From positions 1 to 22,963 of IMG/VR virus record IMGVR_UViG_3300006077_000040: a stretch of DNA of 22,963 nt, one strand, 5' to 3'. This document shows positions 2,788-22,963 of this stretch, in pieces. Position numbers and translations under genes: made by a program. How positions within the stretch are numbered: position 1 is the stretch's first letter; each line of letters begins with the position of its first letter. Source of the DNA: a virus. Below the pieces are notes generated by a model. That model made no database searches and was not told the DNA's origin. It worked only from the letters and a program-made list of their open reading frames with translations.

Positions 2788-4934
2788 TGACAATAGAAGA
2801 TGCTTTTGGTAATACCAATAAAAATAATTTCGGTGTAGGTATCAATGATAAAGACATTGAAAGAACATTAGGTTATAACTTTATGGAAGTTAGACGCAGT
2901 AAAGTTAATCATGATGAGTTCAATGAGAAAATAAAAAATGAAGTAGAGAATCATACAGGATATTCTAAAGATAGAGGGTTTATAGATTTTTTTAAAACTG
3001 TAGGTACGAAAGGTGTAATAGATTTTGAAGAGTCTAAACTATCAGAATCAGAAAGATTTGATTATGATAAAGCCTTAAAGGATAATGTTAACCCTAGTCA
3101 AATAATAGATTTCCTTAGTTCTAAAGATACAAAGTTCGATTATTCACAAGCTAGAAAAGATTTAGGTGATGAAAAACTAGTTGATTTACTTAAAGATAGA
3201 GGTGAAAAGAATCTATTAAATGAGAAAAAATCTAAAGTTGGGGCCTATTCAGACTTTCAAGCTGGTATGATTAAAGCTTCATTAGGTATAAATGCTTTAA
3301 TCTCTGATGGATTACATAAAATAGGGGTTATATCAGATGAAGCCCATTCTTCTGATATAACAAATATACAAAGAACTACTAAAGCCATAGATGAGACTAG
3401 AATGGATAAAGACATTATTAGTTCATATACAGCTGGTGATATAGCTGGTCAAATATTATCATCACCTGCAGCAACTAGTAGGGTTGCAATAGGTACAATA
3501 GGTGGTTTATTAGGTTATGCAAATGAGAGAGGTAATGGTGGTTCAGAATCAGAATCATTAATTGCTGGTGGTGTTTCATCTGCTATAGGTTTAGGTATAA
3601 ATGAAGCTTTTATACAATTAAGTAAACCTGCAAGTAAGAAAGTATTTGAATATTATGAGAATGAAATAGGTTTAACTCGTTCAGAATCAGACCATATATA
3701 TGATAATTGGCTTAAATTAAATGAATCTACAGGTAGTGAATTTGCAGACAGAACAAAAGCTATTATAGACCATTCTGGTACATATGGCGCTAGAATGAAA
3801 GAAGATATAATTATAAATGATATTAAACTAGGTAATAATATTGTTAAAAATAAAGCCGATAGAATAAGAACAATGAATTCTATGCTAGCTAATGATTTCG
3901 ACCCTACAAAATTCTCTAAAAACCTGAATAAAATTTCTGATACTATAAAAAGTAATTATAACCTAGTTAAAGGTAAAATAGATACTGATAAAGGTATGGT
4001 CTCTATAGATACAACATATTTTAAACTAGGTAAAGAATTAAATGATGTATCTACTGATAGGGCTGCGCTAGCAGAATTACTAGGTAAGAATAAGAAAGGT
4101 ATGAAGAATAAGAAAAATCATATTACAACTGTATCAGATTTAATGGATGGAATGCCACATTTAAATGCAATGATTAACAGGGCTAAAGGTAAACAACTGA
4201 GACAATTAACAGAATTAAAAAATAATATGAAATTATCTATAGAAGATGCTATAGACGACGATGTTTTATATAAAGCGTGGAATATAGCTAATGAAGATTA
4301 TGCTGTTATGAATTCTGTTTTAAAATCTAAAATAGGTGATGCTTTAAGTAGAATAACTAAGAGTGGTCCAGGTGCGAAACAAATAAATGCTAATAGAGCT
4401 ATGGAGATTATAAAAACTAATAAAAATAGTGGGGATAAAACTTTTAGAGATATTGCACATATAGTAGGTAAGTCTGAAACAGAACATCTCGAACTAGGGA
4501 TAATCGATAATGCTTTCAATAATCATATTGATGATTTTTCATGGAGAACATTAGAAAAGAGTATAAATACAAAAGGATTTATATCAGAATCAGCAAATAA
4601 TCTAAGTGAATTGATAAAACTATCGAGAGATACATTTAGAACAGACGATGCACTAAGACAAATCATCAGAAAAGATAGCCAAAATATAAACAATAATATG
4701 AGTTCTACTATAGGTGGTAAGGTTATGATTATGTTAAATACATCAATTCTAAAAAGAATGATTAAAAGAATACCATTTAGTAGAACAGCTAAGGATTTAA
4801 GAATGAAAGATGAATTAAGTGAGATATTAGCTTCACCAGAAAAACTTAGAATGATAAAAGCATCATTTGAAGATTTAGATGAAGGTATCAAGAATGATAT
4901 TTTAGAAAGAGCGATAAACGAGGTAATAGAATAA
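2787..4934 (+). CDS. Large probable virion / DNA-ejection protein
   Basis: This 715-residue protein directly follows the portal and precedes a muramidase, a position typical of internal or ejected virion proteins in podoviruses. The N-terminal 170 residues are highly charged. Residues of about 210-275 form a Gly/Ala/Ser-rich, weakly hydrophobic stretch (for example AIGTIGGLLGYANERGNGGS and LIAGGVSSAIGLGINEAF) that could contact or cross a membrane during ejection. The rest is mostly charged and predicted helical. The start uses AAGGA in the end of the portal gene and TAATG coupling. The stop overlaps the following ATG in the same way. No enzymatic motif is visible. A scaffold or head protein is an alternative, but the length and the glycine-rich segment fit an ejection protein better. 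Confidence 0.55.
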   Translation: MTIEDAFGNTNKNNFGVGINDKDIERTLGYNFMEVRRSKVNHDEFNEKIKNEVENHTGYSKDRGFIDFFKTVGTKGVIDFEESKLSESERFDYDKALKDNVNPSQIIDFLSSKDTKFDYSQARKDLGDEKLVDLLKDRGEKNLLNEKKSKVGAYSDFQAGMIKASLGINALISDGLHKIGVISDEAHSSDITNIQRTTKAIDETRMDKDIISSYTAGDIAGQILSSPAATSRVAIGTIGGLLGYANERGNGGSESESLIAGGVSSAIGLGINEAFIQLSKPASKKVFEYYENEIGLTRSESDHIYDNWLKLNESTGSEFADRTKAIIDHSGTYGARMKEDIIINDIKLGNNIVKNKADRIRTMNSMLANDFDPTKFSKNLNKISDTIKSNYNLVKGKIDTDKGMVSIDTTYFKLGKELNDVSTDRAALAELLGKNKKGMKNKKNHITTVSDLMDGMPHLNAMINRAKGKQLRQLTELKNNMKLSIEDAIDDDVLYKAWNIANEDYAVMNSVLKSKIGDALSRITKSGPGAKQINANRAMEIIKTNKNSGDKTFRDIAHIVGKSETEHLELGIIDNAFNNHIDDFSWRTLEKSINTKGFISESANNLSELIKLSRDTFRTDDALRQIIRKDSQNINNNMSSTIGGKVMIMLNTSILKRMIKRIPFSRTAKDLRMKDELSEILASPEKLRMIKASFEDLDEGIKNDILERAINEVIE

Positions 4935-5730: not shown

Positions 5731-5765
5731 CAATTATTTTAATTATCTAATTATTATAATTGAAC
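5731..5765. repeat. 35-bp imperfect palindrome, copy A1 (possible bidirectional terminator)
   Basis: This stretch starts three bases after the muramidase stop and is identical to positions 5871-5905. Each copy is an imperfect palindrome: seven paired bases (CAATTAT/ATAATTG), a two-base mismatch, six more pairs (TAATTA/TAATTA) and a two-base centre. It lies exactly where rightward and leftward transcription converge. A terminator or a protein-binding site both fit. It has no GC-rich stem. Confidence 0.7.
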
Positions 5766-5768
5766 ACC

Positions 5769-5865
5769 TAATTACAAAAATTACTCTAATTACAACTTCG
5801 TTTATATTTGATAATATAAAATTCAATATACCTACCAACGGTAATTATTGTAATTAATGTAATTA
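5769..5865. repeat. 97-bp long-range direct repeat, copy B1
   Basis: This segment is repeated at 21040-21136 in the same orientation with a single mismatch (C at 5799, T at 21070). It has internal symmetry: AATTAC at 5770, 5779 and 5788 (9-bp steps), then a roughly 47-bp centre, then GTAATT at 5841, 5850 and 5859 (again 9-bp steps). It lies between the two 35-bp palindromes at the convergent gene boundary. The function is unknown. Regularly phased half-sites facing each other suggest cooperative binding of a small DNA-binding protein. Confidence 0.9.
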
Positions 5866-5870
5866 AATCC

Positions 5871-5905
5871 CAATTATTTTAATTATCTAATTATTATAAT
5901 TGAAC
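5871..5905. repeat. 35-bp imperfect palindrome, copy A2
   Basis: This is a perfect second copy of 5731-5765, 140 bp further right. It overlaps the last codons and the TAG stop of the leftward VRR-NUC gene. With the first copy it brackets the 97-bp repeat, so each convergent transcription unit ends in its own copy of the palindrome. That is what a pair of terminators or roadblock sites would look like. Confidence 0.7.
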
Positions 5906-6255
5906 GACTCTTTTATTTTAGCTATGACATGACTCTTATCACTAGCTATAACACCTATACCACCTCTTTCATTAATTAGTTTTAACTTAGCTAATTGCAG
6001 AGGTTCATGTTTCTTAAGAGGTTTTTTATCAATTAGGTTATAATGTTTATCACACCCACGCATTACTCTATTATAATCCTTAGGTGTTTTTACCTCTATA
6101 GCTACATGAATTAAAACAATTTTATTTTCTAATTCTATAGGTATCCCGGCCTGTAAATCAGCTTCCCCAGACTTACTATAGGTGCCATTTACTACATGAC
6201 CACCTATAGAATTTATCCAGTTTATTATTTTTGTTTGGTAATATTGTTCTTTCAT
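5887..6255 (-). CDS. VRR-NUC domain nuclease
   Basis: The 122-residue protein fits a stand-alone VRR-NUC (PD-(D/E)XK superfamily) nuclease, as found in many phages, where it is proposed to cut branched DNA. Visible residues are Glu3 near the N terminus, the SKSGEADLQAG loop with the metal-binding Asp, AIEVKTP with the catalytic Glu-x-Lys, and the C-terminal QLAKLKLINERGGIG helix-strand. The start has AAGG seven bases upstream and overlaps the SF2 helicase stop as ATGA, so the two are coupled. This VRR-NUC plus SF2-helicase pairing is common in phages. The last codons lie in a 35-bp repeated palindrome. It is the last gene of the leftward block. Confidence 0.85.
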   Translation of the reverse strand: MKEQYYQTKIINWINSIGGHVVNGTYSKSGEADLQAGIPIELENKIVLIHVAIEVKTPKDYNRVMRGCDKHYNLIDKKPLKKHEPLQLAKLKLINERGGIGVIASDKSHVIAKIKESFNYNN

Positions 6256-7448
6256 CTATATACCTTATTAAATTCCTCATAAGAATTCTTATCGAAATTC
6301 TTTTTCTTAATTGCTACTGTATTATAAATCGATTTACCTATAGCCGGCTTATCCATAACTAATATATCAACCTCTATAGGGTCTCTTCTATCGTGATTTG
6401 CTTGTCTTGCCATTCTTTGTAGATGTTTACTAGTTTTGAAGCTCATACTATAAATAATTAGTTTATCTATATGTTGTAAATCAACTCCTTCTGCATCTCC
6501 ATCAGAACTCAAAATTAAAGCCTCTGGTAATAAATTACTTAGTAATGTTCTTTCATGGATAAAATGAGCCATAATAGCTATTGATTTGCCATGATAATTA
6601 CTTTTTATATATTCTATTTTAGGTAAAGAATCCATTATATATGAGCTACCGTTATCTAGTTTAACTGTACCACCTTCTAGTTGATAATGAACTATTCTCT
6701 TTTTAGAGTCTGAATCTAATAGCACTAAGTTATCTTCAAATATATTATCTTCTATGATACCTTTGAATAGCTTATTATATTCACCATTAGGTTTTATAAT
6801 AATTAGTTTCTCTGTTGGTTCATGTTCAATTCCTACTTCTTGTCTAGTCTTCCATATGAATAGATGTTGTATCTTATCTAATATCTCTTTATCTTTATAT
6901 TTAGTTCTTGAATCAACTAACCCATAAGGTGTTCTAACCATTTTAGGAATACCGAATACATTATACCATTTATAAAAGTTTATATATTCTTTAAATGGGC
7001 TATATGATGATAAAGCTAATTGATTAAAGATTAAACCTAAATGCTCAGAATATGGAGTTGCTGATAAATATACTATAGGTTTTCCTAATGTATACTTTTT
7101 AACATTCATCCAAGTTTTACTAGTTCTACCTATAGAGCTAATAGCATGATGTGCTTCATCTAAAATAATTAAGTCAAATGTATCTTTAATTTTATGAACA
7201 GATTCATAGTTTATAATTGTATATGATTTTGTAATAGGTAGATTTTTTAAGTGAGTATTCCAACCAGGTATGGCTTTCTTTTTAGTTACAACTAATATTT
7301 TCTTAGCTTTACTATTCTCTGATAATAATAACGCTGTTCCTGTCTTCCTAGTTCTCTCTTTCCAGGCTATATAAACTATACCGTAATCCCTAAGAATAGA
7401 GAGTGCCAATTTGGCTCCCTCTATCTGATGCGGGTTATATGACCACAT
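6252..7448 (-). CDS. SNF2/DEAD-like SF2 helicase with altered Walker A
   Basis: The 398-residue protein has the order of motifs of phage SNF2-like SF2 ATPases: a Q-like NPHQIEGAKLAL near the N terminus, motif I at about residues 31-38, LDEAHH (Asp97-Glu98-Ala-His100), LSATP around residue 130, and a C-terminal QRMARQANHDRRDP motif VI. Such proteins remodel DNA or assist recombination and replication. The striking feature is motif I, which reads ERTRKTGT. The invariant Gly of GKT is Arg34, encoded by AGG, one base away from GGG. The Lys-Thr pair is kept. If real, nucleotide binding may be impaired. The start overlaps the MazG-like stop, with AAGGGA upstream. VRR-NUC follows with an ATGA overlap. 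Confidence 0.85.
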   Translation of the reverse strand: MWSYNPHQIEGAKLALSILRDYGIVYIAWKERTRKTGTALLLSENSKAKKILVVTKKKAIPGWNTHLKNLPITKSYTIINYESVHKIKDTFDLIILDEAHHAISSIGRTSKTWMNVKKYTLGKPIVYLSATPYSEHLGLIFNQLALSSYSPFKEYINFYKWYNVFGIPKMVRTPYGLVDSRTKYKDKEILDKIQHLFIWKTRQEVGIEHEPTEKLIIIKPNGEYNKLFKGIIEDNIFEDNLVLLDSDSKKRIVHYQLEGGTVKLDNGSSYIMDSLPKIEYIKSNYHGKSIAIMAHFIHERTLLSNLLPEALILSSDGDAEGVDLQHIDKLIIYSMSFKTSKHLQRMARQANHDRRDPIEVDILVMDKPAIGKSIYNTVAIKKKNFDKNSYEEFNKVYR

Positions 7449-13617: not shown

Positions 13618-14130
13618 TTAAACAGTTTTAGTTGCTGTAACTGAAGAGAAATCAGGTTTACTAGCTTGAATAGCTTTTAACTCTTCTTGTAATGATTTAA
13701 CTGCTTCGGTATCAGTAACATCAAGTTCAGACATATCAGACATAATTGAAGCAATTGATGCTCTTTTCTGTTTAGCATGAAGCTTAGAAATCTTTTCAGC
13801 TTGACGAGAAAGTCTTCTGATTTGAGTACCATCTTTAAGAACAATAGTATTTGCCCCTCTATCACTTTTATCAGCATAAAAGAATTCTAATGTAGCAGGA
13901 AGCCATACATTTGAAGTAGAACATAAAACTTCTACAATGTCACCATTTTCATCTTTTCTAGTGAAATCTTCAATATTTAGTCTCTTAGAATTAGTTCTAG
14001 TAGGTTTAAAATCATCAATTACAGGTTTAAAAGCCTCTTCAAGTTTTTCAAGTTGTTTAGGAGATTTGATAACCTCACCAGCTGCGGCAATAAGAGCTGT
14101 TAAAAGCAATGTTTTATTTGTTTCATTCAT
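13618..14130 (-). CDS. Unknown protein of the replication module
   Basis: I do not recognise this 170-residue protein. It begins with a mildly hydrophobic helix (LLLTALIAAAGEVI), has a central part with strands (DIVEVLCSTSNVWLPATLEF and NTIVLKDGTQIRRL) and ends in charged helices. It has no signal peptide motif and no enzymatic signature. It sits directly upstream of the SSB gene on the same strand and has its own likely promoter and a good AGGA site seven bases before the ATG, so it may be made with SSB. A replication accessory or DNA-binding role is only an inference from position. Confidence 0.85.
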   Translation of the reverse strand: MNETNKTLLLTALIAAAGEVIKSPKQLEKLEEAFKPVIDDFKPTRTNSKRLNIEDFTRKDENGDIVEVLCSTSNVWLPATLEFFYADKSDRGANTIVLKDGTQIRRLSRQAEKISKLHAKQKRASIASIMSDMSELDVTDTEAVKSLQEELKAIQASKPDFSSVTATKTV

Positions 14131-14213: not shown

Positions 14214-15541
14214 TTTATAATTATTAGTCTATCTATAGCTCTCGATAATGCTACATACATAAGAGTAGCAAATTGAGTATAGTTACCATTTCTAACACTA
14301 GTTTTTATATCATCATGAGCTAGAAATACATTACTAAATTCTGAACCTTGAACTTTATGCACAGTACTAGCAAATTTTCTATCTAATCTAAAAACATGAT
14401 TTTTAAAACCTAGGTACTTACCCCAAGCTCTACCTCTATCAGATACAAATTTCTCATTTCTATTCTCCTTACACCATTTAGCTAATTTTATTGACTTATC
14501 TAGGTTATGATGATTGATTAATTTATTTTGAATGAACTCTACATCTAATTTAAGATTTTTATCCGTCTCATGATAATTGTCGTCGTAATAAATATTATAA
14601 AATTCATCATTGAAATTAATTACACATTTTTTATACATAGATAAATCAGTTCTAAATTTCTCTATATTAGTATTAACCTGTTTTAACTTCTTCTCGAAAT
14701 CTTCAACTAAATTACTACCTTTTAATAAAGATGGAAACAGGTTATCATTAAAATCTGTATGCCCAATACTATCAAATTTACAGTAAGTAGAACCTAGTTG
14801 AAGCTCTTCATCAAGGTTAAAAGTGTCTAGCGGTAAACCTAGGTGTTCACTAACAATAATATTTAGTTCTGATACTTTTTTATTAGTATAAGCCAGGATT
14901 TTATCTGTATCAGGATTGAATTCAGATACCCAATTATTACCCATCCTAACCAAATCACTACCTCTATTAGTATAGAGTTTTAAATCATTACATGAAGAAT
15001 CTTTTAGGTAATGTACATATCGCATAAAAGTCTCCACTACATTAGGAGCTTTACTTCTATATTGATTAGTGAATAACTCTATTCCTGAATCAGTATAAAT
15101 ATAATCTTCAGGATTAATAGCTTCACCATTAACTGGTGGCAATTGATAAGGGTCACCATAAACAATTACTTCTGCTGTAGCAGGTAATATTTCTAAGAGA
15201 ATATCAAAAACATGTTTAGGTATCATACTGAATTCATCAATATAAATCTTCTTAACAGTGCTCATATCAAGTTCACCAATTCTCAATAATTTAGTTCTCA
15301 TCTTACCTCTGAAATTATCATCTATATTAGGTACAAGTTTTAATACCGAATAAATAGTAAATACATTAATCATACCTTTATTATTCAATACTTCCTTCGC
15401 TTTATGGGTAGGAGTCAGAACCATGTAATTACTATCATCAGCTAGTTTACTAGCTAGGTGTGTAGATTTACCAGAACCAGCATAACCTAGTTTAAATTTA
15501 ATCTCTTGTTCATAATCTCTTAACTCTTCACCTAATTCCAT
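14210..15541 (-). CDS. SF1B DNA helicase, Dda/RecD-like
   Basis: The 443-residue length is close to T4 Dda (439). Motifs in order: Walker A GYAGSGKST (residues 19-27), Ia LTPTHKAKEVL, II KKIYIDEFSM, III VYGDPYQLPPV, IV TNQYRS, V ASTVHKVQGSEF and VI MYVALSRA near the C terminus. Together they identify a 5'-3' SF1B helicase that unwinds DNA or displaces proteins during replication initiation or recombination. Only 18 residues precede Walker A, so the usual upstream Q-motif region is short or absent. The start is still well supported, by an AGGA site and a 10-bp overlap with the upstream small gene. It lies between the ligase cluster and the SSB/polymerase genes. Confidence 0.92.
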   Translation of the reverse strand: MELGEELRDYEQEIKFKLGYAGSGKSTHLASKLADDSNYMVLTPTHKAKEVLNNKGMINVFTIYSVLKLVPNIDDNFRGKMRTKLLRIGELDMSTVKKIYIDEFSMIPKHVFDILLEILPATAEVIVYGDPYQLPPVNGEAINPEDYIYTDSGIELFTNQYRSKAPNVVETFMRYVHYLKDSSCNDLKLYTNRGSDLVRMGNNWVSEFNPDTDKILAYTNKKVSELNIIVSEHLGLPLDTFNLDEELQLGSTYCKFDSIGHTDFNDNLFPSLLKGSNLVEDFEKKLKQVNTNIEKFRTDLSMYKKCVINFNDEFYNIYYDDNYHETDKNLKLDVEFIQNKLINHHNLDKSIKLAKWCKENRNEKFVSDRGRAWGKYLGFKNHVFRLDRKFASTVHKVQGSEFSNVFLAHDDIKTSVRNGNYTQFATLMYVALSRAIDRLIIIN

Positions 15542-17089: not shown

Positions 17090-17271
17090 TTCATCTCCAA
17101 TTCTATAATTTCTAGTTTTAAACTAGTGTTTTCTTGTTGTAGGTTTCTAACCTGCTCAACAATATCTTTTTTACCATCTTCTACACCTTTATAATAAAGT
17201 TCAAGTAATAACCCTTTGAACTTTTCGGATAAATTAGGCATAGAATTAATATGAAATTTAATCTTATTCAT
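17083..17271 (-). CDS. 62-aa coiled-coil protein
   Basis: Two in-frame ATGs exist at 17277 and 17271. I prefer 17271 because AGAAG lies six bases upstream of it, whereas it abuts the first ATG. The start lies inside the end of the primase-helicase gene. The C-terminal half (IVEQVRNLQQENTSLKLEII) has a leucine/isoleucine heptad pattern and is probably a coiled coil. The N-terminal half is helical (MPNLSEKFKGLLLELYYKG). It could be a small oligomerising partner of its neighbours. No family is recognised. Confidence 0.75.
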   Translation of the reverse strand: MNKIKFHINSMPNLSEKFKGLLLELYYKGVEDGKKDIVEQVRNLQQENTSLKLEIIELEMKC

Positions 17272-19537
17272 AATCATCTTCTAACGGAATAATAAAGTTA
17301 TCAAAATCTAACATTCTAATATAATGTTTATTCTCTCCATTAATAGTAGTATACGGATGCCTAGGTTGATTGGTTAACATCTTCTTAAACTTAGTTTTGA
17401 CTCTTTGTTCAGTTTTAGAATTATCAGCAGATGGATTATAAGCATCATATATATCACAAATAACAGAGGTCAAAACCCTACTAGATGGTTGTCCTGCCAT
17501 TAGCTCATCTTGCATATTAACACCTAAAGCTAATTCATATAAACTATCATACATTTGGTCTTCAATAAAGATTGCCATTCTATCAACTAAAGGCAATTTA
17601 TTAAGAATTAATTCTTTCTTGCTCTCAGTAAATGGTGCAGTAGTATATTCTATTCCATCTAGGTTACTGAATTCAGTTGCAAGCCAATACATAACATCAG
17701 CTAGGATTAAACCTCTTTTATAATCATCAAACATAACAGATGCTATATGAGTAGGTAGTTTAGTAGGCGTATCTATATAAAAATAACGTCTATCATCCCT
17801 ATCAAAATTCATAGAACTACCATTTTGAGTCAAAATAAATGTAGCATTCATATCAGTATCATAATGATTACTATTCATACCTCTAATCTGACATCTATTA
17901 GAACCTGTATATCTCTTAAGGTTACCATTAGCTTTATTAATATCTTTACTATCTAATGAGTTATAAAGTTCATCTAAATGAGCAAAATATATACCATCTA
18001 ACCACTTGTTAAACTGACCAACTATATGCTCTGCACCCATCTCCATAGAAATATATTTATCGCTCATAATATCTCTAAGAATCCGAACAAATAGTGATTT
18101 ACCGGAGCCACTTGCACCAACGAAATAGTAAATAACAGGAGAATGTTGAAACGTAGTCAATTTGGTTCTCAAATGACGTAATAAATATTCTCTATCTTCT
18201 TCGTTAGGAACTAAGCTTTCCATATATTCAATAAATAGTTCAGGTTTCACATAATTATCCTTATGTGTAATAGGATTGTTTATAATCTCTAAAAATCTAG
18301 TCGGGTGAAACACATTATAATCAGTTTGATTAATTAAACCGAATGGCTCATTAGGTCTAAGTACAGATTCAAAATTAGGAAGAATCTCTAATAACTTTGG
18401 ACCTGTTGTCGGAAACCGCTCTCTTACACTTGCTGCTATATTTGGTGCAACCTTACTAGCTTGTTCATAACGTTTAATAGAACCTTTTGTATGGTTAATT
18501 TCAAATATCAGGTGTCTCTCAGGGTCATAAAAGAACTCAACTGTATAACCTAGTTTACTCACTACAGTCAATGAATGACTTCTCCAATTCTCATCATATC
18601 TCCATATAGGTTCACCATTTATAGAACTAGAGCCTATAATCATAGGATTCATAATCTCACTAGGAGCAGATTTTAGATGTTTCAATCTTCTAGCATGGTC
18701 AAAGAAGTTAATAATATAATTCATAGTACGTCTATAAAAATCTTCATTAATAGAAATATCAGAACCTAGTATTGCACTAACTTTCATCAAATAATCTGAA
18801 CCAGAACCTTCAGGTATGTCATTCGGTTCCAAATAAGTTTTCTTCTTATATAAATTGTTTCTATAACTCTTAGGTGTAAGAATAGTAAATAAACCCTTAT
18901 TCAAAACATCAGGAGTTTTAAGAGCCAATTCTACCAACGGAAACAATTTGAATACTGTAGATTTGTTCTTATCAAATGACATAGTTGCATCAGCTATAGT
19001 ATTACTAGTAATCTCTGCTTCGGAAGCTATTTTCCAAATCTTCATTAGATTGAGAATCGTATCAGGTACAGGTTTCAATTCAGGTACCTTATCCCAAGCC
19101 ATTTTACTCTCGTTGCCAGCAGTAGGTAAAAACACCATTCTGTTCTGACCGCTTGAAAACAGTTCCATACCCATTCTACCATTGTTAAATGTATCAGGAA
19201 TACCGTCAGTCCAACTAAAGAAGAAACTAGCTCCTCTGATAGGATTACCATCTTTATCAATCTTACCAACACTCCAAGCAATATTATCATCGTATGGATT
19301 AAGTTGTTCAATCAAATCTGTTGTTTCAGACGTATCACAATCTATAACTATTAGATTAGCATCTTTACCAACCAAAGCCGCTCCAACGGGAGTACTCATT
19401 TCATTAGGTTGTTTCAAGTCTTTCCAATTAGTAAGTATCTTGAAATTTTTCTTACCTTTTACTCTAGTGATTTTAGCTGAAGTAAAAGGTACCGTATACC
19501 AACCAGCATCTATAAAAGGAGCTAATGATTCAACCAT
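17264..19537 (-). CDS. Primase-helicase: AEP/prim-pol-like N terminus plus SF3 helicase
   Basis: The 757-residue protein has two modules. Residues of about 1-160 resemble an archaeo-eukaryotic primase/prim-pol domain: ALVGKDANLIVIDCDTSE with Asp66-x-Asp68, then RGASFFFSW and MGMELFSSGQNRMVFLP. The His usually found in the S-x-H motif is not evident at the expected place (ASFFF), so synthesis activity is uncertain. Residues of about 440-640 form a D5/DUF5906-type SF3 helicase: Walker A FVGASGSGKS near residue 475, Walker B GIYFAHLDELY, and the later DMNATFILTQNGSSMNF plus DRDDRRYFYID arginine-finger region. It should open and prime DNA at the origin and fork. GGAGG lies seven bases before the ATG. 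It overlaps small genes on both sides. Confidence 0.88.
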   Translation of the reverse strand: MVESLAPFIDAGWYTVPFTSAKITRVKGKKNFKILTNWKDLKQPNEMSTPVGAALVGKDANLIVIDCDTSETTDLIEQLNPYDDNIAWSVGKIDKDGNPIRGASFFFSWTDGIPDTFNNGRMGMELFSSGQNRMVFLPTAGNESKMAWDKVPELKPVPDTILNLMKIWKIASEAEITSNTIADATMSFDKNKSTVFKLFPLVELALKTPDVLNKGLFTILTPKSYRNNLYKKKTYLEPNDIPEGSGSDYLMKVSAILGSDISINEDFYRRTMNYIINFFDHARRLKHLKSAPSEIMNPMIIGSSSINGEPIWRYDENWRSHSLTVVSKLGYTVEFFYDPERHLIFEINHTKGSIKRYEQASKVAPNIAASVRERFPTTGPKLLEILPNFESVLRPNEPFGLINQTDYNVFHPTRFLEIINNPITHKDNYVKPELFIEYMESLVPNEEDREYLLRHLRTKLTTFQHSPVIYYFVGASGSGKSLFVRILRDIMSDKYISMEMGAEHIVGQFNKWLDGIYFAHLDELYNSLDSKDINKANGNLKRYTGSNRCQIRGMNSNHYDTDMNATFILTQNGSSMNFDRDDRRYFYIDTPTKLPTHIASVMFDDYKRGLILADVMYWLATEFSNLDGIEYTTAPFTESKKELILNKLPLVDRMAIFIEDQMYDSLYELALGVNMQDELMAGQPSSRVLTSVICDIYDAYNPSADNSKTEQRVKTKFKKMLTNQPRHPYTTINGENKHYIRMLDFDNFIIPLEDDYE

Positions 19538-20682: not shown

Positions 20683-20790
20683 TCTGTTATCCTTTGTTAA
20701 TTATAAGAATTACTAATTATTTTAATTACGAACTTTTAAGAATTCAATAATAATTTAATCAATAATTCTAATATTTGCTCTGGTCGTAAA

Positions 20791-20812
20791 AGGGCCAAAA
20801 TACCCGCGCCCT
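20791..20812. other. GC-rich hairpin in the noncoding locus
   Basis: AGGGC and GCCCT form a perfect five-pair stem around a 12-base loop. On the minus strand GCCCT runs into TTTA, so it may act as a weak leftward terminator. It is the core of a roughly 55-bp GC-rich patch that stands out sharply from the AT-rich surroundings and also contains TGCTTCGGCA. Confidence 0.4.
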
Positions 20813-20906
20813 GCTTCGGCAACCACCGCTTTTGAAAAAAATTTAACAATGTTGGTAACTAATTACAAATGACCGATAATTTTGATTAATTTCAATATAT
20901 ATCGTT

Positions 20907-20940
20907 CAATTACAATAATTATGCAATTACAATAATTATG
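20907..20940. repeat. Tandem 17-bp repeat (two perfect copies)
   Basis: The unit CAATTACAATAATTATG occurs twice in direct succession without a mismatch. Each unit contains the AATTAC word that also builds the 97-bp repeat, so the same protein may bind both. Confidence 0.85.
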
Positions 20941-20983
20941 AATATTTAAATAATTTTAAATAAACTAAATAATTATTTAAAAT

Positions 20984-20995
20984 CCATAATTATGG
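20984..20995. promoter_or_regulatory. Palindrome CCATAATTATGG
   Basis: A perfect 12-bp palindrome just left of the 97-bp repeat copy. It fits a dimeric operator site, but no matching site was found near other genes. Confidence 0.3.
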
Positions 20996-21002
20996 TTATA
21001 TT

Positions 21003-21017
21003 GTTACCTAATGTAAC
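21003..21017. promoter_or_regulatory. Inverted repeat GTTAC-N5-GTAAC
   Basis: GTTAC and GTAAC are separated by five bases. A longer version (GTTACC-ATT-GGTAAC) lies on the other side of the 97-bp repeat at 21138-21152, so the repeat is bracketed by similar inverted sites. Confidence 0.35.
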
Positions 21018-21039
21018 GTTATTTTCCATTAAATTACCA

Positions 21040-21136
21040 TAATTACAAAAATTACTCTAATTACAACTTTGTTTATATTTGATAATATAAAATTCAATAT
21101 ACCTACCAACGGTAATTATTGTAATTAATGTAATTA
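21040..21136. repeat. 97-bp long-range direct repeat, copy B2
   Basis: This copy matches 5769-5865 at 96 of 97 positions in the same orientation, with T at 21070 instead of C. Here the left array has a fourth AATTAC at 21032, again nine bases from the next, so it reads 21032, 21041, 21050, 21059. The facing GTAATT words are at 21112, 21121 and 21130. Unlike copy B1 it lies between two genes of the same strand, so it cannot simply mark a convergent boundary. Confidence 0.9.
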
Positions 21137-21137
21137 G

Positions 21138-21152
21138 GTTACCATTGGTAAC
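21138..21152. promoter_or_regulatory. Inverted repeat GTTACC-ATT-GGTAAC
   Basis: A perfect six-base inverted repeat with a three-base centre, starting one base after the 97-bp repeat. It looks like an operator half-site pair and resembles 21003-21017. Confidence 0.4.
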
Positions 21153-21176
21153 ATTGTAATTCATTGTTTAATATTA

Positions 21177-21504: not shown

Positions 21505-22107
21505 TTAAAGTGATTCGATATTTATATACCATTCAAATACATTCTCAAAACTATCAATATTATCAAATGTATCAACGATAGCAAATGAATCAGGTTTCTT
21601 ACCACCATAGTTTAGCCAGTCGTTTTTGAAATCGAATATATCTAGGTTATCAATTCTGTTTTTTATATCTCTAGCCTTTAATGCCAACTCTTGAGCTGCT
21701 TCAATATCATCCAACATAATACTAGCTGCCTCCGCATTTAGCTTTTTAACTTGTGATTGAGCTTTGTTCCAAGTCGAATAACTAGCTCTACAATAACCTT
21801 TAGACTTCCCATCCTTAGTTAATACCATTAGCTCTACTGGTTCATATTGTCCGTGGAATCTACACCAAAAAGCCATCACATTACCTTCGTTATCTAACAA
21901 TGGTTTATGAGTTGTTCTACTTGAAGTCTTCTTAGGTTTAGATAATTCTATCACCTTAGCTTCTAGCTCTTTAATCTTAGCTTCATACTCATTAGCTACC
22001 TCATTCATAGCTGTGATGATGATTTTCTCTACATCCTCAACTTTAGTTTTTGCTATTTTAGCATCAACAATCATTTGTGATACTACTGTACTTAATTTAG
22101 TTTCCAT
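21505..22107 (-). CDS. Unknown 200-aa early protein with coiled coil and Cys/His segment
   Basis: The first 60 residues are a probable coiled coil (VEKIIITAMNEVANEYEAKI, KELEAKVIELSK). A central segment, AFWCRFHGQYEPVELMV followed by GKSKGYCRASYSTWNKAQ, has Cys-x2-His and a later Cys with nearby aromatics, which resembles a small treble-clef-like zinc site, though only three ligands are obvious. The C-terminal third is acidic and helical and ends FEWYINIESL. The leader and ribosome binding site (GGAGACAAG before ATG) are almost identical to those of the next gene upstream. The function is unknown. As an early gene it may act on the host. Confidence 0.8.
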   Translation of the reverse strand: METKLSTVVSQMIVDAKIAKTKVEDVEKIIITAMNEVANEYEAKIKELEAKVIELSKPKKTSSRTTHKPLLDNEGNVMAFWCRFHGQYEPVELMVLTKDGKSKGYCRASYSTWNKAQSQVKKLNAEAASIMLDDIEAAQELALKARDIKNRIDNLDIFDFKNDWLNYGGKKPDSFAIVDTFDNIDSFENVFEWYINIESL

Positions 22108-22439: not shown

Positions 22440-22462
22440 CTTGTCTCCATTTAGTTTGTTTT
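22437..22462 (-). promoter_or_regulatory. Shared leader with strong RBS, copy 2
   Basis: This is the leader of the 86-aa gene, the counterpart of 22105-22131 with one base fewer. It abuts the first promoter-like unit at 22461. Confidence 0.75.
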
Positions 22463-22528
22463 ATAAATTTCTTTCTGATTATTTATAATTATATTATAGC
22501 GAGTTTACTGTTAAAGTTTTATTAAATT
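22461..22528 (-). promoter_or_regulatory. Promoter-like tandem unit 1
   Basis: A 68-bp segment repeated at 22567-22634 with two mismatches. On the minus strand it contains ACTCGCTATAATATAA, with a perfect -10 hexamer at 22493-22498, about 54 bases before the 86-aa gene. No TTGACA is seen 17 bases upstream. An AT-rich TTTAAC/TTTAAT stretch stands there instead. Confidence 0.65.
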
Positions 22529-22566
22529 CTCGTGATTTAATAAATTTAATAACTCACTGTAAATAA

Positions 22567-22634
22567 TTATAAATTTCTTTCTGATTATTTATAATTATAT
22601 TATAGCGAGTTTATTATTAAAGTTTTATTAAATT
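22567..22634 (-). promoter_or_regulatory. Promoter-like tandem unit 2
   Basis: The second copy lies exactly 106 bp to the right of unit 1, with -10 hexamer TATAAT at 22599-22604. The two mismatches (22614 and 22616, equivalent to 22508 and 22510) lie upstream of the -10. Confidence 0.65.
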
Positions 22635-22685
22635 TATAAATATTTTAAATATTTTGGGATTAAATTATTTGCTAACATTATTATA

Positions 22686-22704
22686 ACGCGTGCACGCGCA
22701 CGTG
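22686..22704. other. 19-nt alternating purine-pyrimidine tract (Z-DNA prone)
   Basis: ACGCGTGCACGCGCACGTG alternates purine and pyrimidine without a break and contains the palindromes ACGCGT, GCGTGCACGC and CACGTG. It is the most GC-rich short stretch in a very AT-rich region and lies between two TATAAT hexamers. Confidence 0.8.
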
Positions 22705-22753
22705 ATTATATTGAGTTATTATTAAAATAATATTAAATTTATAAATATTTTAA
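22705..22753 (-). promoter_or_regulatory. Promoter-like tandem unit 3 (degenerate)
   Basis: The -10 hexamer TATAAT at 22705-22710 is again 106 bp from that of unit 2. The upstream half matches unit 2 with one indel and a few mismatches, including a 22-bp identical stretch (22732-22753 and 22627-22648). The downstream half is replaced by the alternating GC-rich tract and a further TATAAT at 22680-22685. Confidence 0.5.
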
Positions 22754-22883
22754 TATAATTTCGATATAATATAATAATAAATATATTGCCCATAATTCAA
22801 CGAGGATGGACGAGAACGGATTATTATAAATTATCTGGATGATTATATTAAATTAATATTAAATCCCTCAGATTGGGTTTATG

Positions 22884-22963
22884 AACAGCAATGTGATTTA
22901 ACAGCAATGTGATTTAACAGCAATGTGATTTAACAGCAATGTGATTTAACAGCAATGTGATTT
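22884..22963. repeat. 16-bp tandem repeat array, at least five perfect copies, open at the window end
   Basis: The unit AACAGCAATGTGATTT repeats five times without a mismatch from 22884 to the last base of the window, so the true copy number is unknown. There are no spacers and no reading frame (TAA occurs at each junction when read with the preceding T). It may be a set of protein-binding iterons or a repeat close to a genome end. Confidence 0.9.

Follow-up and report, generated by a model that had tools for sequence, protein, structure and literature searches.

SaPI Rep helicases bind to origins made of iterons, and they apparently do so in the form of two hexamers (PMC7581432). An 8-nt recognition sequence that occurs twice in opposed orientation has been proposed as the origin of NrS-1 (PMC7102993), and the recognition motif is TTTGGTTA (PMC8718748). 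The way in which NrS-1-like PrimPol/SF3 replicases locate their start sites is only partly known so far, and the locus described here would show this if it acts as an origin. It occupies positions 20683-21176 of the IMG/VR phage fragment IMGVR_UViG_3300006077_000040; “the window” below means this whole record of 22,963 bp. Judging from the sequence, we give about even chances to the reading of this locus as a DNA control element of the iteron type that most likely serves as the replication origin of the phage. No earlier description of the element was found in the literature searched, the coverage of which was incomplete.

Repeats at the locus and their arrangement

The fragment carries virion genes that run rightwards up to 5728 and, convergent with them, a block of early genes on the minus strand that runs leftwards from the right end to 5887. 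The gene order agrees with that of Edwardsiella phage KF-1, including both sides of the 5.8-kb junction between the blocks, and on this basis the fragment can be regarded as a distant Kafunavirus-like podovirus. No close relatives at the DNA level were found among phage records. The end of the record (22884-22963) lies inside a 16-bp tandem repeat, AACAGCAATGTGATTT x5, and probably marks either an assembly end in repetitive sequence or the border of a terminal region. Another gene-free AT-rich repeat stretch is found at 22461-22783, upstream of the first early gene, with 68-bp direct repeats at 22461 and 22567 and a 199-bp imperfect palindrome.

The features of the locus and the two genes discussed together with it are the following.

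17264..19537, minus strand: PrimPol + superfamily 3 (SF3) helicase, 757 aa, a relative of NrS-1 polymerase
20699..20729, no strand: AATTAY array at the left edge of the locus, spacing 9-7-9
20780..20829, no strand: GC-rich island inside the AT-rich locus, 62% GC, which is the maximum for 50-bp windows in the record
20907..20940, no strand: perfect 17-bp tandem repeat CAATTACAATAATTATG x2, AATTAY spacing 9-8-9
21003..21017, no strand: inverted repeat GTTACCTAATGTAAC, left bracket of the element
21032..21136, no strand: palindromic iteron element (copy R), consisting of an AATTAC arm, an AT-rich centre and a GTAATT arm
21040..21136, no strand: 97-bp duplicated core of copy R
21138..21152, no strand: inverted repeat GTTACCATTGGTAAC, right bracket of the element
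21505..22107, minus strand: phrog_10459-family protein, 200 aa; in relatives, elements of this kind are linked to its gene

An earlier note on this DNA had reported a gene-free interval of less than 500 bp with at least thirteen AATTAC/GTAATT words, a perfect 17-bp tandem repeat, a 12-bp palindrome and two GTTAC/GTAAC inverted repeats bracketing a 97-bp element. All of this was confirmed: the 494 bp contain 13 exact words and no ORF of at least 50 aa, the tandem repeat starts at 20907 and 20924, the palindrome CCATAATTATGG lies at 20984, and the brackets are those listed above. A 14-bp palindrome, TAAATAATTATTTA, was additionally found at 20966. What the note did not contain is the 9-bp spacing, the inverted arms and the second copy of the core.

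The number of words is high in comparison with 2000 dinucleotide shuffles (mean 1.26, sd 1.14, maximum 7), and their order is a stronger signal than their number. AATTAY words of the same orientation stand exactly 9 bp apart in nine pairs, while 0.03 are expected and none of 500 shuffles reached this value. In the element the arms are inverted, i.e., AATTAC at 21032, 21041, 21050 and 21059 faces GTAATT at 21112, 21121 and 21130 over the AT-rich centre. One could suppose that an AT-rich spacer yields such words unaided, the GC content of the locus being only 22% (29% in the genome). The shuffle tests rule this out, as shuffled sequences never attained the word counts or the 9-bp spacing, and the design is common to relatives; we see practically no chance for this explanation. 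The locus contains one short repeat many times at regular spacing, with AT-rich DNA beside and between the repeats (40-bp windows within 20930-20989 have a GC content down to 7.5%).

The GC-rich island precedes the next early gene by about 100 bp. Its folding energy is no better than that of shuffles, and a search of the locus and the island for Rfam families gave only chance-level matches, far under the gathering scores. The minus strand of the island contains AGGGC...GCCCT followed by TTT, which could be a weak terminator or attenuator.

The earlier note regarded the layout as that of an iteron-type origin or a complex operator. The anatomy does fit, and this interpretation gains strength because the half-sites recur every 9 bp, the arms are inverted around an AT-rich centre and relatives conserve this architecture. 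The layout alone does not separate an origin from an operator. As an operator, the arms would be bound by the phrog_10459 protein or another phage regulator that controls early transcription, either by autoregulation or as an early-to-late switch. A strong promoter-like site just upstream of the element on the early strand, a good match to a sigma-70-like promoter (TTGACA-18-GATAAT, 21202-21173, minus strand), speaks for this reading, which we consider a real possibility that falls short of even chances.

A second copy of the core at the convergent junction

The 97-bp core occurs in the window once more, with the following surroundings.

5731..5765, no strand: perfect 35-bp direct repeat, left of the second copy
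5769..5865, same orientation as the first copy: second 97-bp core copy, 96/97 identical, between the convergent gene blocks
5871..5905, no strand: perfect 35-bp direct repeat, right of the second copy, overlapping the 3' end of ORF 5887-6255

The only difference between the copies is C5799 versus T21070. Their similarity ends exactly at the inverted termini (TAATTAC...GTAATTA), with none beyond. An assembly chimera at the repeat was rejected because the gene order flanking the junction agrees with KF-1. The right 35-bp repeat encodes the C-terminal codons of gene 5887-6255, so that the duplication extends into the end of the gene.

The second copy sits at a 3'-3' junction, where there are only 3' ends of genes. 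This argues against an operator and speaks more for an origin or another replication site, because no gene start is present there to control. If the element is an operator, the extra copy would serve as a roadblock or a bidirectional termination site between the convergent transcripts. A bidirectional terminator as such was considered and discarded, since the arms are AT-rich and no T run follows them.

The 35-bp repeat matches the reverse complement of 20904-20938, i.e., of the 17-bp tandem array, at 29 of 35 positions (maximum 27 in 500 shuffles). The convergent junction therefore contains a counterpart of each module of the first locus. The second copy may be an extra origin or a terminus or assembly site that arose by duplication of the first. 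Without 140 bp the junction would measure 18 bp, about as compact as in relatives, where it spans 28-44 bp or the genes overlap.

The same data could be read as the trace of a small mobile or copied (MITE-like) element, the insertion of which at the junction duplicated 35 bp of target. The copies stop exactly at inverted termini with no likeness outside, the 5.8-kb copy stands between perfect direct repeats, and excision of 140 bp would restore a junction like those of relatives. However, 35 bp is much longer than the usual target duplications, and the unit need not be a target at all because it is related to the locus's own AATTAY array, a resemblance reached by none of 500 shuffles. A search with exact core patterns gave no match in viral or genome contigs, and insertion would account for the second copy, not for the conserved first one. 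We therefore regard a MITE-like origin of the second copy as improbable. With its duplicated copy, this phage offers a natural test of whether elements of this kind are movable.

Elements beside phrog_10459 genes in relatives

The 757-aa protein matches phrog_19785, and relatives sharing about 30% identity with it occur in Edwardsiella phage KF-1, Vibrio phage VPMS1, Dickeya phage Amaethon and Pseudoalteromonas phage PH1. A search with the single primase sequence gave no matches, while an alignment-based search of viral contigs gave 28 relatives; bacterial genomes searched with the primase alignment gave none. Imperfect palindromes of about 100 bp were found upstream of the primase in several of the relatives.

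We ran a detector of inverted arms, each with two tandem half-sites, on the fetched loci. It matched KF-1 (ATAATACCT), VPMS1, Amaethon, L015, L016 and L034 (AAATCC every 9 bp), L022 (AAATCT every 8 bp), L039 (AATGATTT every 8 bp) and the low-complexity L033, with 0/105 matches in Markov controls; this first result is not independent because the detector was designed after some of the cases had been seen. Almost all AAATCY pairs spaced 8 to 9 bp apart are found as inverted pairs. Distant Kafunavirus-like phages share the architecture with another half-site, mostly AAATCC per 9 bp, and AAATCC is kept among genomes in which the linked protein is only 34-62% identical. Two further repeats were observed in these loci. 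At 6358-6460 of locus L012, upstream of its phrog_10459 gene, the 17-bp unit TTATCATTTGATACCCG is repeated six times in perfect tandem, and two promoter-like repeats come after it. In KF-1 (L006), a unit of about 83 bp, present three times in tandem and nearly identical each time (3547-3813), directly follows the palindromic element, which is located at 3473-3559.

The earlier note placed the locus upstream of the primase-helicase gene. This is correct for the phage studied here, in which about 1.1 kb and four small genes separate the two, but the conserved neighbour in relatives is not the primase; it is the gene corresponding to 21505-22107. The element is about 1.5 kb from the primase start in our phage and 2-6 kb in most relatives. 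Its distance from the upstream phrog_10459 member ranges from 26 to 684 bp in eleven further genomes. In VPMS1 this member is MS_01, 89 bp from the element across the ends of the record.

Held-out contigs were fetched by the phrog_10459 protein alone, and the detector settings were left unchanged. The 38 new contigs gave seven matches, all within 700 bp of a phrog_10459 gene, although this near zone makes up 18% of bases; controls gave 0/38. As the matches of L077 and L078 are identical, the seven represent about five independent lineages. A relaxed detector, run after the held-out test on 59 phrog_10459 loci (old and new), gave 20 near matches in 104 kb versus seven far ones in 701 kb, one of the latter being this phage's own second copy; shuffled near regions gave 0/590. 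Of the 59 loci, 19 have an element no more than 700 bp from the phrog_10459 gene. The other 40 have no near match with this detector, so the exact design is not universal.

Retention of the same kind of palindrome beside phrog_10459 in distant relatives marks it as a likely protein-docking site, and we are highly confident that it represents a real, conserved, protein-binding cis element. The phrog_10459 family has no assigned function, usually has two members per genome and consists of small proteins rich in conserved lysines. The predicted model (pLDDT 90.6) has no convincing match to a known fold, and a DNA-binding fold was not recognised in it; a zinc-ribbon reading was dropped because the TFS4 match covers a helical stretch alone. 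Since the model matches nothing known well, it is by linkage only that the phrog_10459 protein becomes a candidate reader of the half-sites. There are too few half-site types to separate the phrog_10459 protein from the primase as their correlate. An uncharacterised family is now tied to a defined DNA site. A 170-aa protein encoded at 13618-14130 has a weak phrog_10459 match (E 0.003; 1e-5 to the clade profile) and is possibly the second paralog, relocated between the genes of a helicase and a single-strand-binding protein.

The relatives also bear on the operator. In L013, L020, L023, L031 and L037 inverted repeats instead flank the phrog_10459 gene on both sides, and in L007, L010 and L016 an additional single arm stands a few hundred bp past the palindrome; both arrangements would suit transcriptional control. 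In most relatives, on the other hand, the element is found on the downstream side of the phrog_10459 gene. A good promoter lies in the centre of the VPMS1 element (2/200 shuffles), but the other nine of ten elements have none better than shuffles, and a conserved promoter in the palindrome centre was rejected.

In relatives the elements are located between terL and the early genes. This position and the sharp ends of both copies at inverted termini could also indicate another nucleoprotein site, for packaging start, partition or recombination. The window, from which about half of the genome is missing, showed neither a partition gene nor a recombinase gene, and same-orientation copies 15 kb apart would invite recombinational deletion. 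We consider such a site less probable still than a MITE-like insertion.

A possible mode of initiation and comparison with known systems

In its anatomy the locus corresponds to a site at which DNA is opened by an array of proteins and a helicase is loaded. If the locus is an origin, a phage-encoded DNA-binding protein, for which the adjacent phrog_10459 protein is the candidate, would fill the half-sites of each arm, and the AT-rich centre would then open. The PrimPol/SF3 protein, the candidate helicase/primase to be loaded at the element, would be placed at the opened centre, unwind the DNA and prime in both directions. Loading would resemble that by SaPI Rep initiators, with apparently two hexamers on iterons. 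The check by GC skew proposed in the earlier note gave the origin no support: there is no switch at the locus, and relatives are inconsistent. Two further observations weigh against this reading, namely that 40 of the 59 phrog_10459 loci have no near match and that a DNA-binding fold was not recognised in the phrog_10459 family.

A wider proposal is that Kafunavirus-like phages share an initiation system in which phrog_10459, a family restricted to this clade and of unrecognised fold, reads 9-bp iterons in a palindromic origin and loads the PrimPol/SF3 helicase, the origin being duplicated in our phage. In this full form it seems rather unlikely, slightly less probable than the operator. If true, this phage has two start sites 15 kb apart. 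The elements also provide a testable candidate origin (or master operator) for the cultured phages KF-1, VPMS1, Amaethon and others.

Like lambda-type and plasmid iteron origins, the locus combines tandem repeats and an AT-rich stretch near replication genes; here, instead, the half-sites have a 9-bp period in inverted arms and no recognised initiator family is present. There is no exact DnaA box (TTATCCACA), and one-mismatch matches are below expectation, with none in the locus. Phage P4 has two separated repeat-bearing loci in one genome, as in this phage. The P4 iterons (ori/crr) differ from those of this element in sequence and length. The 757-aa protein is similar to the P4-family primase-helicase (TIGR01613), with a match below the cut-off.

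With NrS-1 the phage shares a homologous PrimPol/helicase, the predicted model matching the C-terminal region of NrS-1 polymerase (6k9c, 6lrb). The NrS-1 motif is absent from the locus, and its one copy in the window, at 14947, is at chance level. The SaPI origin lies directly downstream of rep, whereas the element described here is about 1.5 kb upstream of the primase, beside the phrog_10459 gene, a difference that speaks against the origin reading. As in SaPIs, however, there are sets of short repeats, in SaPIs also oppositely oriented around an AT-rich stretch, and the phage encodes an SF3 initiator-type helicase, fused to a primase, whose model matches SaPI5 PriRep1 as well as NrS-1 polymerase.
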